Shown: in pieces, positions 51,876 through 54,558 of the stretch
How the letters are laid out: each line of letters opens with the position of its first letter
Position numbering within the stretch: the stretch's first letter is position 1
Source of the DNA: Halalkalicoccus jeotgali B3
GTDB taxonomy: Archaea; Halobacteriota; Halobacteria; Halobacteriales; Halalkalicoccaceae
Length of the DNA stretch: 64,000 nucleotides
Assembly (NCBI RefSeq): GCF_000196895.1
Contig: NC_014297.1
Location: 2,123,345-2,187,344 of the forward strand
Direction: 5' to 3'
Program-made: the position numbers and the translations under genes
Notes under the pieces: model-generated
What the model was told of the DNA's origin: nothing
Seen by the model: only the letters and a program-made list of their open reading frames with translations
Database searches by the model: none

Positions 51876-52493
51876 TCACTCCTCGAAGTCGAGCGCCTCG
51901 ATGAGCTGATCGGTCATCTCCTTGCGGCCGAGGTTGGCCTTGATGTCGTGGTCCTTCGCCAGCGACTGGAGTTCCCGATACGACAGCTCCTCTAGCTCCT
52001 CGCGACTCTCGGGGTCCTCTTCGTCCCCGGATTCGTCGTCCGATTCCCCACCGCCGTTCTCATTTCCCTCTTCGTCCTCCTCGTCCGTGCTCTCGACGTC
52101 CTCGTTTTCGTTCTCGTCGTCCTCGTCGTCCTCCTCGTCGTCGTCACCCGACTCCTCCGCGTCGTTCTCAGTTCCCTCCTCGTCGCCTGACTCCTCGTCC
52201 TCGCTCTCGTCTTGTGTGTCCTCCCCGTCTTCGGATCCGTCGTCGGCGTCCGATCCTCCGTCGTCCTCCTCGTCGTCGCCTCTGATCGATTCCTGGATCT
52301 GCCGGGCGATCGCTTCGCCGAGCTTCCGGCCGATGATCGCGCCGAGTGCGCCGCCGAGCGATTCGGCGAGCGATTTCTCGTCGTCGGCCTCGAAGGTGTC
52401 CTCGAGCTGGGTGCCCTCGAACAGCTCCTCGTAGTCGACGTTGTCGAGCAGTTTTTCGGTGTCGATGCTGTCGGCAAGGTTTGTGTCGCTCAT
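51876..52493 (-). CDS. Hyperacidic protein with glycine-zipper helix and SAP-like C-terminus
   Basis: A 205-residue protein in three parts. Residues 1-70: acidic helices then a small-residue helix ESLGGALGAIIGRKLGEAIA (glycine-zipper-like, amphipathic). Residues ~71-160: an almost pure Asp/Glu/Ser/Gly linker. Residues ~160-205: SREELEELSYRELQSLAKDH and DIKANLGRKEMTDQLIEAL, a helix-extended loop-helix like SAP/Rho-N/HeH domains. Last gene of the gvpA-gvpO transcription unit, where gvpC/gvpN usually lie. Not recognised as a Gvp family; possibly a scaffold. Confidence 0.75.
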   Translation of the reverse strand: MSDTNLADSIDTEKLLDNVDYEELFEGTQLEDTFEADDEKSLAESLGGALGAIIGRKLGEAIARQIQESIRGDDEEDDGGSDADDGSEDGEDTQDESEDEESGDEEGTENDAEESGDDDEEDDEDDENENEDVESTDEEDEEGNENGGGESDDESGDEEDPESREELEELSYRELQSLAKDHDIKANLGRKEMTDQLIEALDFEE

Positions 52494-52535: not shown

Positions 52536-53369
52536 CTATGCGCTCGCGGCGTCGCCGTTGTCGCTGTCGTCGCTATCGTCGGCGCCCAGAAGCTGGTTGA
52601 CCAGTTCCTGAACGAACTGCGTGGCCAGCTCCTCGAGGGGCAACTCGTCGAGGATGCTGCCGAAGAAACTCCGCAGGCGCTCCGCTATTGCACTCCCGAA
52701 CGCCGCAATCCGCTCGCCGAGGGCCAGATCGGGCAGGAGCCCGCTCGAACCGTCGCCGTCCTCGCCCTCCTGGTCACCGTCGTCCCCGCCAAGCAGACCG
52801 TCCTCGCCCAGCAGACCGCCGTCCTCGTCGTCCCCGCCCAGCAGGCCGCCGCCGAGCAGGTCATCGAGGCCGAGCAGGCTCCCCAGATCGCCGCCGTCGA
52901 GCAGGCCGCCGACCGCCGACAGCAGGTTTCCGAGCAGGTTCCCCCCGCCGGGAATCGCGGTGATATCGAGGGTCACCTCGTCGAGGTCGACCTCCAACCC
53001 GAGGAGATCGAGGAACAGTCCATCGAGGTTGAGGTGGAGCACGCGGGTGCCCTCCTCGGATTCGGACTCCTCGCGGTCGCTCTCCTCTTCGTCACCCGTC
53101 TCGTTGTCCTCGGTTTGATCGTCCTCGTTTTCCCCTTCGGCGTCCGCTTGTTCGTCGCCTTCCTCGGTTTCGTCGTCTTCCTCGTCCTCGGTTCCCTCGG
53201 CGGACTCCCCTTCGCTGTCGGCTCCGTCCTCGGCGTCCGCTTGTTCGTCGCTTTCCTCCGTTTCGTCTTCCTCCTCGGGCGCTTCCTCCTCTCCCCCGTC
53301 GGGGAGCAGTACGCGCACGTGGACGCCATCGTCTCGACCAGCGGTCGTAGATTGGTCTACCATCGTCAT
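52536..53369 (-). CDS. Acidic Gly/Leu-rich protein of the gas vesicle cluster
   Basis: A 277-residue protein. Residues 1-~107 are Asp/Glu-rich with a repeated DEQADAE. Residues ~110-158 form a distinct hydrophobic block LHLNLDGLFLDLLGLEVDLD then EVTLDITAIPGGGNLLGNLL, a pattern I have seen in other haloarchaeal and bacterial hypothetical proteins. Residues ~159-195 are LLGG/DDL repeats; ~210-262 an amphipathic helix region. No signal peptide. Its place between gvpO and the SAP-like protein suggests a shell-surface or assembly role in place of GvpC; this is inference. Confidence 0.75.
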   Translation of the reverse strand: MTMVDQSTTAGRDDGVHVRVLLPDGGEEEAPEEEDETEESDEQADAEDGADSEGESAEGTEDEEDDETEEGDEQADAEGENEDDQTEDNETGDEEESDREESESEEGTRVLHLNLDGLFLDLLGLEVDLDEVTLDITAIPGGGNLLGNLLSAVGGLLDGGDLGSLLGLDDLLGGGLLGGDDEDGGLLGEDGLLGGDDGDQEGEDGDGSSGLLPDLALGERIAAFGSAIAERLRSFFGSILDELPLEELATQFVQELVNQLLGADDSDDSDNGDAASA

Positions 53370-53433: not shown

Positions 53434-53772
53434 CTACTCGCCGGCCGGCGTAAACGACTCGTGACAGTCGAGACAGACGTGGGACTCGGCGTTGAGCGCG
53501 TCCGCGCTCGCGTCAGTTAGCGCTCCGTCGTTGGCGAGTTTCGCCGCACCGACACCGGATTTGTATACCGCTGCCGCGCTCTCACACTCGGGGCACTCGA
53601 TCGACGAGCCGTCCTCGAGGGCGGCGAGACGGCCCTCGAGGACCTCGATCCGGTCTTCGAGGGCTTCGATATGCTCGCCGTCGTCGACGGAGGCCTGTCC
53701 GAGCGCCTCGAGGGCCTCTTCTACGTCCATCGGTTCGTCGATCCACGGCAGGGTGATCTCTTCGTTACTCAT
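53434..53772 (-). CDS. Coiled-coil zinc ribbon protein of the gas vesicle cluster
   Basis: A 112-residue protein: N-terminal acidic part, a heptad coiled coil at residues ~33-54 (GEHIEALEDRIEVLEGRLAA), then a zinc ribbon with Cys60/Cys63 (CPEC) and Cys100/Cys103 (CLDC). Placed 51 bp downstream of gvpO. Not a recognised Gvp family member; likely dimeric. Could regulate or adapt vesicle assembly. Confidence 0.72.
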   Translation of the reverse strand: MSNEEITLPWIDEPMDVEEALEALGQASVDDGEHIEALEDRIEVLEGRLAALEDGSSIECPECESAAAVYKSGVGAAKLANDGALTDASADALNAESHVCLDCHESFTPAGE

Positions 53773-53823: not shown

Positions 53824-54282
53824 TCAGACGTCCTGATCCATGTCGTCACGGCGATACCGGTGGGTTCGGCGGTAGCCGGTGATCTCGTGGTCGGCGTCGA
53901 GCGTGATCTCGTAGCGCCCGAGGATGTCCTGCGTATCGGGGACGCTCTTGCGTTCGAGGATCTCGACCGCCGCGACCCATCCTTCCTCGTTGTTGTCCTC
54001 GCCCCGGCTCCGATCGCGGTCGACGGAGACGACGCTCACGAGCGGACGGCCGATGAGGTCCGCTGCGACCTGCCTGATCTTTTCGCGTACCGTCCCGATC
54101 TCGGTTTCCGAGACGGAGTCGTTGTCTGCCATGTCTGAATCCTCCGATTGGTGGTCGTCGATCGTCTCGTCGTCGGGTCCGTGCTGGTAGCAGAACCCGT
54201 CGCCCTGTGCCGGCCGGGTGCATCGCTCGCCGCCCGAGGTCAGCGCCTGGCACTGCTCGTCGGCTGTCTCCGCGTCGGACAT
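53824..54282 (-). CDS. gvpO: Gas vesicle protein GvpO with N-terminal Cys/His knuckle
   Basis: A 152-residue GvpO. The C-terminal core (GWVAAVEILERKSVPDTQDI, LGRYEITLDADHEITGY, YRRDDMDQ) matches halophile GvpO, an essential accessory protein. The first ~37 residues are an added domain with Cys11, Cys21, Cys31 and His34 (CQALTSGGERC, FCYQHG), a zinc-knuckle pattern also seen in DUF5763-like fingers. An internal ATG (MADNDSVSETEIG, residue 51) could give a canonical short GvpO. Starts 12 bp after gvpA. Confidence 0.85.
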   Translation of the reverse strand: MSDAETADEQCQALTSGGERCTRPAQGDGFCYQHGPDDETIDDHQSEDSDMADNDSVSETEIGTVREKIRQVAADLIGRPLVSVVSVDRDRSRGEDNNEEGWVAAVEILERKSVPDTQDILGRYEITLDADHEITGYRRTHRYRRDDMDQDV

Positions 54283-54294
54283 GGGGGAGTCCGC

Positions 54295-54558
54295 TTACGA
54301 GGACTCGGCGGACGCCTCGATCTCGATGTCCTCGAGGTCGTCTAAGTCCCCCTCTTCCTCCGCTTGTTCGATCTTCGATATCTCCCTCGCATAGTGGAGG
54401 AACGTGTCAACGGAGGCGATCACGACGCGGGCCTCGACGGTGAGGATCTCGATCCCGACGAGCGAGACACGCACCCAGATGTCGATGACCGCACCCTTAT
54501 CGAGGATGCGATCGAGCACCTCTGCGAGGCTTGACGTGCTTGGTCTTGCTTGACTCAT
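54295..54558 (-). CDS. gvpA: Major gas vesicle structural protein GvpA
   Basis: Main rib protein of the gas vesicle shell, 87 aa. The core [20 protein letters not shown] then [20 protein letters not shown] and [15 protein letters not shown] matches GvpA almost residue for residue. The acidic tail ([21 protein letters not shown]) is longer than in Halobacterium GvpA (76 aa). Start [10 protein letters not shown] is supported by a Shine-Dalgarno-like gaaggga 8 nt upstream. Transcribed away from gvpF. Confidence 0.95.

Follow-up and report, generated by a model that had tools for sequence, protein, structure and literature searches.

GvpO is essential for gas vesicles in experiments on Halobacterium salinarum, with a function described as unknown in the sections of the study cited here (PMC9501494). 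Haloarchaeal gas-vesicle clusters without gvpC are known (PMC4390858, in its passages on these clusters), and the passage on zinc in PMC9372576 concerns GvpC. In Haloferax volcanii, the C-terminal part of Cas11b is made separately by in-frame internal initiation, which the authors present, in the excerpt cited here, as the first such case known in archaea (PMC11899642). Our search of the literature found nothing on DUF5763, on GvpO isoforms of the kind discussed below, or on internal start codons in gas-vesicle genes; a paper that mentions GvpO and an isoform deals with enterobacterial gas vesicles.

Here, we analyze the gvpO gene of Halalkalicoccus jeotgali B3 within a window of 64,000 nucleotides (the whole stretch of DNA under study), and compare it with its relatives in the class. 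We propose that this GvpO carries a small knuckle that serves as a zinc-containing docking tip, and that the gene gives two products by internal initiation at ATG51. We give this combined reading an even chance.

Results

The gvpO locus and the gas-vesicle genes of the genome

The gene belongs to a gvp cluster: it adjoins gvpA, whose stop codon is separated from the gvpO ATG by 12 nt, and gvpF/L-, gvpH-, and gvpJ-type genes are close by (Table 1). The Pfam GvpO model matches the core with 79.8 bits (E 1.6e-22, cut-off 25). Profile searches of the H. jeotgali genome gave a single GvpO match, no match to the GvpC repeat, and four GvpA-type matches, of which one is outside the window. Among named relatives, Halalkalicoccus paucihalophilus (L033) is the nearest, being 79% identical over its best segment.

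Some further genes deserve mention. A GvpA-type gene additional to those of the window cluster lies away from it, at G000:C1:1910322-1910438 (L194). A GvpN match over the cut-off is found some 0.95 Mb from the cluster (G000:C1:1226235-1226999, L173), and the ORFs listed beside it include no recognized gas-vesicle gene. The gene directly downstream of gvpO encodes a product with a coiled-coil-like part and two CxxC pairs resembling a zinc ribbon, and its Pfam and NCBIfam matches are weak only. Two acidic proteins are also encoded downstream of gvpO, one of them with a weak SAP-like C-terminus that scores under the cut-off.

Table 1. Features of the gvpO locus (positions in the window; residues are those of the full-length GvpO)
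Feature	Positions	Strand	Remarks
gvpA	54295-54558	minus	Immediately upstream of gvpO; NF046092 halo_gas_GvpA
gvpO, 152 aa full-length halophile-type GvpO	53824-54282	minus	ATG start; profile matches
N-terminal knuckle domain NF045806	54154-54258	minus	Residues 9-43; putative ligands Cys11, Cys21, Cys31, His34 at 54181-54252
Acidic linker, knuckle to GvpO core	54100-54180	minus	Residues 35-61; translation and comparison of relatives
GGAGG, Shine-Dalgarno-like	54141-54145	minus	8 nt before ATG51
Internal ATG in frame (Met51), from which a knuckle-less 102 aa GvpO might start	54130-54132	minus	ATG kept in genus
GvpO core	53836-54132	minus	PF05800, residues 51-149
Gene directly downstream of gvpO	53434-53772	minus	Zinc-ribbon-like product
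Acidic protein	52536-53369	minus	
Acidic protein	51876-52493	minus	Weak SAP-like C-terminus

A conserved knuckle on a variable linker

The three cysteines, the histidine, and Met51 that the initial annotation placed ahead of a normal GvpO core are present as stated in the translated ORF. The knuckle itself is not new. It matches NF045806 of NCBIfam ('GvpO_arch_Nterm') far above chance (75.2 bits, E 2.2e-21, cut-off 52), and residues 9-45 match DUF5763 (PF19067; 53.2 bits, E 2e-14, cut-off 26.3); it is therefore a domain already named in databases.

Across relatives, conservation is high in the knuckle, and the variable part is the linker, with lengths of 22 to 110 residues over 99 distinct knuckle genes. 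In 98 knuckle sequences (L097, with a knuckle of 25 residues, was left out), the invariance of the Cys and His was imposed by the pattern used for selection; that pattern did not impose the positions A, T, G, R, A, F, and Q, which are nearly invariant as well. Within the window's genus, the knuckle has a dN/dS of 0.094 and the core one of 0.069 (six sequences, L108 being left out; no value was obtained for 1 of the 15 knuckle pairs, and core pairs of unequal length were compared from Gly-Trp onward). The knuckle thus evolves at about the slow pace of the core, under purifying selection. Conservation beginning at the internal Met only, which the initial annotation named as the refuting pattern, is not what the family shows; a start near the position equivalent to Met51 is seen in one bare relative (L071). 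The knuckle pattern did not pick up L119, a GvpO in which Arg replaces the first Cys and the remaining ligands are kept, and the counts on 99 genes do not include it.

A conserved knuckle followed by a variable linker has the look of a folded tip on a tether, and the knuckle is very likely a structural metal site. Searches of PDB sequences gave no credible relative of the knuckle (best E 0.26) and no match for the whole protein. In the AlphaFold model, built from three sequences, the core blocks have mostly about 53-80 pLDDT and the knuckle is unreliable (<50); Foldseek comparison of this model with the PDB gave 0 matches at E <= 0.001.

Distribution of the knuckle and alternative modules

PF05800 is present in 161 of the 391 genomes of the class, and NF045806 exceeds its cut-off in 120. 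A comparison of the two lists by eye puts the knuckle over the cut-off in 118 of the 161 genomes with GvpO; in the two other genomes (G213 and G340), it is on a protein other than GvpO. Of the 391 genomes, 17 gave matches to GvpC repeats, 16 of them with GvpO (two of these, G156 and G235, with one weak repeat each), and none of the 16 has the knuckle over the cut-off. This contrast between the knuckle and GvpC persists within groups f2, f3, and f5 and within genus g21, in counts that ignore kinship.

The GvpO proteins without the knuckle include some with a helix-hairpin-helix, some with another helical module that has no Pfam name, and bare ones. Among the proteins tested, L016, L079, and L082 have an N-terminal HHH_5 (helix-hairpin-helix) and no knuckle. 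The knuckle label changes 9 times on a core tree of 148 rows, which has few columns and weak support; the rows are the distinct proteins from 157 ORFs in 156 loci (identical ones counted once), and L064 was scored as bare although it has a helical module.

The knuckle also occurs on other proteins. In two genomes (L112 and L114), a GvpO-type knuckle is at the C-terminus of GvpJ-type proteins, a label assigned from sequence; the Gas_vesicle model matched L114 only, L112 being cut. One of the two genomes has a GvpO knuckle and a GvpJ knuckle that agree at 95 of 105 nt, which suggests recent copying within the genome. L110 and L111 have an N-terminal knuckle on a different protein of about 255 aa, in L110 with a glycine-zipper-like stretch.

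Candidate internal starts in the window gene and its genus

The GGAGG ahead of ATG51, which the initial annotation did not mention, is complementary to GGATCACCTCCT, a presumed 16S tail sequence that has three copies in the H. jeotgali genome. Its distance from ATG51 is inside the range of 4-10 nt reported to translate well for the gvpH gene of Halobacterium (PMC4390858, passage on spacing). The internal ATG is found in all 7 distinct sequences of the genus, and the sister genus (L097) has a GTG in the corresponding part of the linker, with GGAGG upstream. When compared with random synonymous recodings, the GGAGG-ATG51 pair of the window is not significant (p about 0.20), and a start with a binding site is not enriched in the genus (4 of 7 sequences vs 3.3 expected, p 0.45). 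The claim of two isoforms from one gene gains its comparative support from the family: most knuckle genes retain an in-frame ATG or GTG beyond the knuckle, and such a codon with a Shine-Dalgarno-like sequence upstream is retained more often than the amino acids would predict.

Candidate internal starts across relatives

An in-frame ATG occurs in the linker of 66 of the 99 distinct knuckle genes. We rejected this plain count as evidence, because the binding-site energy at the 66 first internal ATGs is no better than in recoded sequences (mean p 0.53). In 18 of the 99, an internal ATG is absent, and so is any GTG more than 8 codons beyond the knuckle; some of these carry a GTG directly after it. 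GTG takes a larger share of the linker Val codons in genes without a linker ATG than in genes with one (16/69 vs 7/170, Fisher 2.4e-5); in the cores, the shares are 48/338 vs 57/647 (p 0.012). Fifteen linker GTGs of genes lacking a linker ATG have a better upstream binding-site energy than recoded sequences (p 0.004). A test on independent ATG/GTG pairs had only 4 pairs and was too small to decide. The linkers of the 16 GvpO automatically labelled with a helical module have no Met among 641 residues, a count that ignores kinship and is suggestive only.

Further evidence comes from a large clade set, the 64 distinct genes with TV[SN] directly after the knuckle; the set defined in this way has at least one member from another family (L139). 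Their usual DNA at this place is GAC GAG AGT GAT CCA ACM GTG AGY. The Val codon is GTG in all 64, while GTG accounts for 13% of the Val codons. Of 121 columns, the three most conserved unpreferred codons are this GTG (64/64), GAT (62/64), and AGT (55/58). Further columns without any third-base change exist, none of them among the 14 columns with the strongest unpreferred codons. The GTGATCC of the clade can pair with GGATCAC in the presumed 16S tail; this pairing uses the outer part of the tail and leads to a long aligned spacing, about 10 nt by our own count.

We then counted genes with an ATG or GTG in the linker preceded by a binding site with energy <= -6, and compared them with 200 synonymous recodings. 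Such a start is found in 56 of the 64 TV[SN] genes (9.5 expected) and in 18 of the 35 other knuckle genes (9.2 expected), with 0/200 recodings as high in either case. When the first eight post-knuckle codons of the 64 genes are removed, the excess is gone (8 vs 8.4 expected); the signal of the clade is therefore that of the GTG site alone, not of a later ATG. Among 19 held-out loci, GTG is present in 18/18 of the TV[SN] type, and L189, of another type, has GTC. Since the held-out genomes are related to those of the first set, this is a check of consistency rather than an independent one. Over all loci, with a stricter core pattern, the GTG is in 78/78 TV[SN] genes and the upstream GTGATC in 60 of the 78.

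Two other readings of the post-knuckle site were rejected. One is an internal promoter that would give a short transcript without a leader: by eye, the third bases some 20-35 nt upstream of the clade GTG vary freely. The other is a conserved overlapping gene with a TGA overlapping the GTGA: the TGA is in 64/64 genes, yet the open length upstream of it ranges from 26 to 416 codons, and so no conserved overlapping ORF is evident.

Possible relics or pause sites

The internal codons might be relics. According to this explanation, GvpO is a single product, the knuckle is fixed, and the internal ATG or GTG are the start codons of an ancestral bare GvpO to which the knuckle was fused. We consider this a serious possibility, if one with clearly less than an even chance. 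Bare GvpO does occur and, as in L071, can start near the equivalent of Met51; the ribosome-binding signal is not significant at the level of the genus; and in some knuckle genes the linker contains neither ATG nor GTG. Yet, relics are expected to decay by synonymous change. On a tree of the core DNA, the third bases of the clade GTG, GAT, and AGT changed 0, 2, and 1 times, when the median column changed 7 times, even though these codons are unpreferred.

Alternatively, the conserved rare codons might cause a translational pause, by codon rarity or by an internal Shine-Dalgarno sequence, that lets the knuckle fold, and not mark a start. The conserved unpreferred codons are indeed just beyond the domain boundary, and the site pairs with the 16S tail. 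However, a pause does not need a start codon, and the Val codon is nonetheless invariably GTG, whereas the third bases of the two spacer codons before it changed 8 and 14 times. A pause also leaves unexplained the enrichment of GTG in other lineages where the ATG is missing. We regard it as improbable.

Discussion

Our results suggest that the comparative support for the predicted short form comes from the relatives more than from the window gene. Internal initiation seems somewhat likelier than its absence in the large clade, and about evenly balanced in the window gene. More broadly, gvpO may be a one-gene, two-protein locus in a large haloarchaeal clade and, in another form, in further lineages including H. 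jeotgali. The last codons of the knuckle would contain the binding site for an in-frame GTG or ATG, and translation would set the ratio of knuckled to bare GvpO in systems without GvpC. We hold this general reading tentatively, at slightly under an even chance.

The mechanism that we envisage for H. jeotgali is the following. Its gvpO encodes a halophile-type GvpO in a gas-vesicle cluster without gvpC. The N-terminal 35 residues form a small Cys3His knuckle, most likely with one structural zinc, and this knuckle would act as a protein-docking tip that an acidic, flexible linker tethers to the conserved GvpO core. GvpO contacts GvpA, GvpN, and GvpL in another species. The most likely products are two, the full-length GvpO and a knuckle-less GvpO, the translation of the latter presumably beginning in frame at ATG51, after the GGAGG. 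Our case for a structural metal site that serves in docking is that the knuckle is small and tethered, that other small modules can take its place, that GvpJ has it as well, and that it is missing where GvpC occurs. The initial annotation had instead proposed that zinc links vesicle assembly to the metal or redox state, and although the Cys3His ligand set would suit a zinc or redox sensor that switches assembly, we find this very improbable: the alternative N-terminal modules of GvpO (helix-hairpin-helix and another helical one) and the C-terminal knuckle of GvpJ better fit a tethered binding tip, the natural relative L119 has Arg for the first Cys, and this analysis turned up no regulator or metal gene tied to the knuckle.

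At the level of the domain, the knuckle does not differ from NF045806 GvpO_arch_Nterm and DUF5763 (PF19067), whose curated cut-offs it exceeds; the descriptions of both models are silent on internal starts and on function. The Halobacterium-type GvpO has the PF05800 core in common with that of H. jeotgali. It differs in being bare, without the knuckle, and in being encoded in gvpACNO clusters with GvpC, whereas in H. jeotgali gvpO comes right after gvpA, and the search for GvpC repeats gave no match. The C-terminal zinc finger of haloarchaeal GvpC is likewise a zinc-finger motif on a vesicle-associated protein. Yet, its motif, a CxxC with a later H...H (L164), is unlike the GvpO knuckle, and GvpC was not found in the knuckle-bearing genomes of our set. 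The confinement of the knuckle, in this set, to genomes without a GvpC match, together with a possible built-in dual GvpO, offers a testable handle on the role of GvpO.

Finally, the closest precedent for in-frame internal initiation is Cas11b, where it was shown by experiment; for gvpO, it is predicted from sequence comparison. If the short form is real, gvpO would be a further case of internal in-frame translation, beside the one that its authors, in the portion cited here, call the first known in archaea (PMC11899642).
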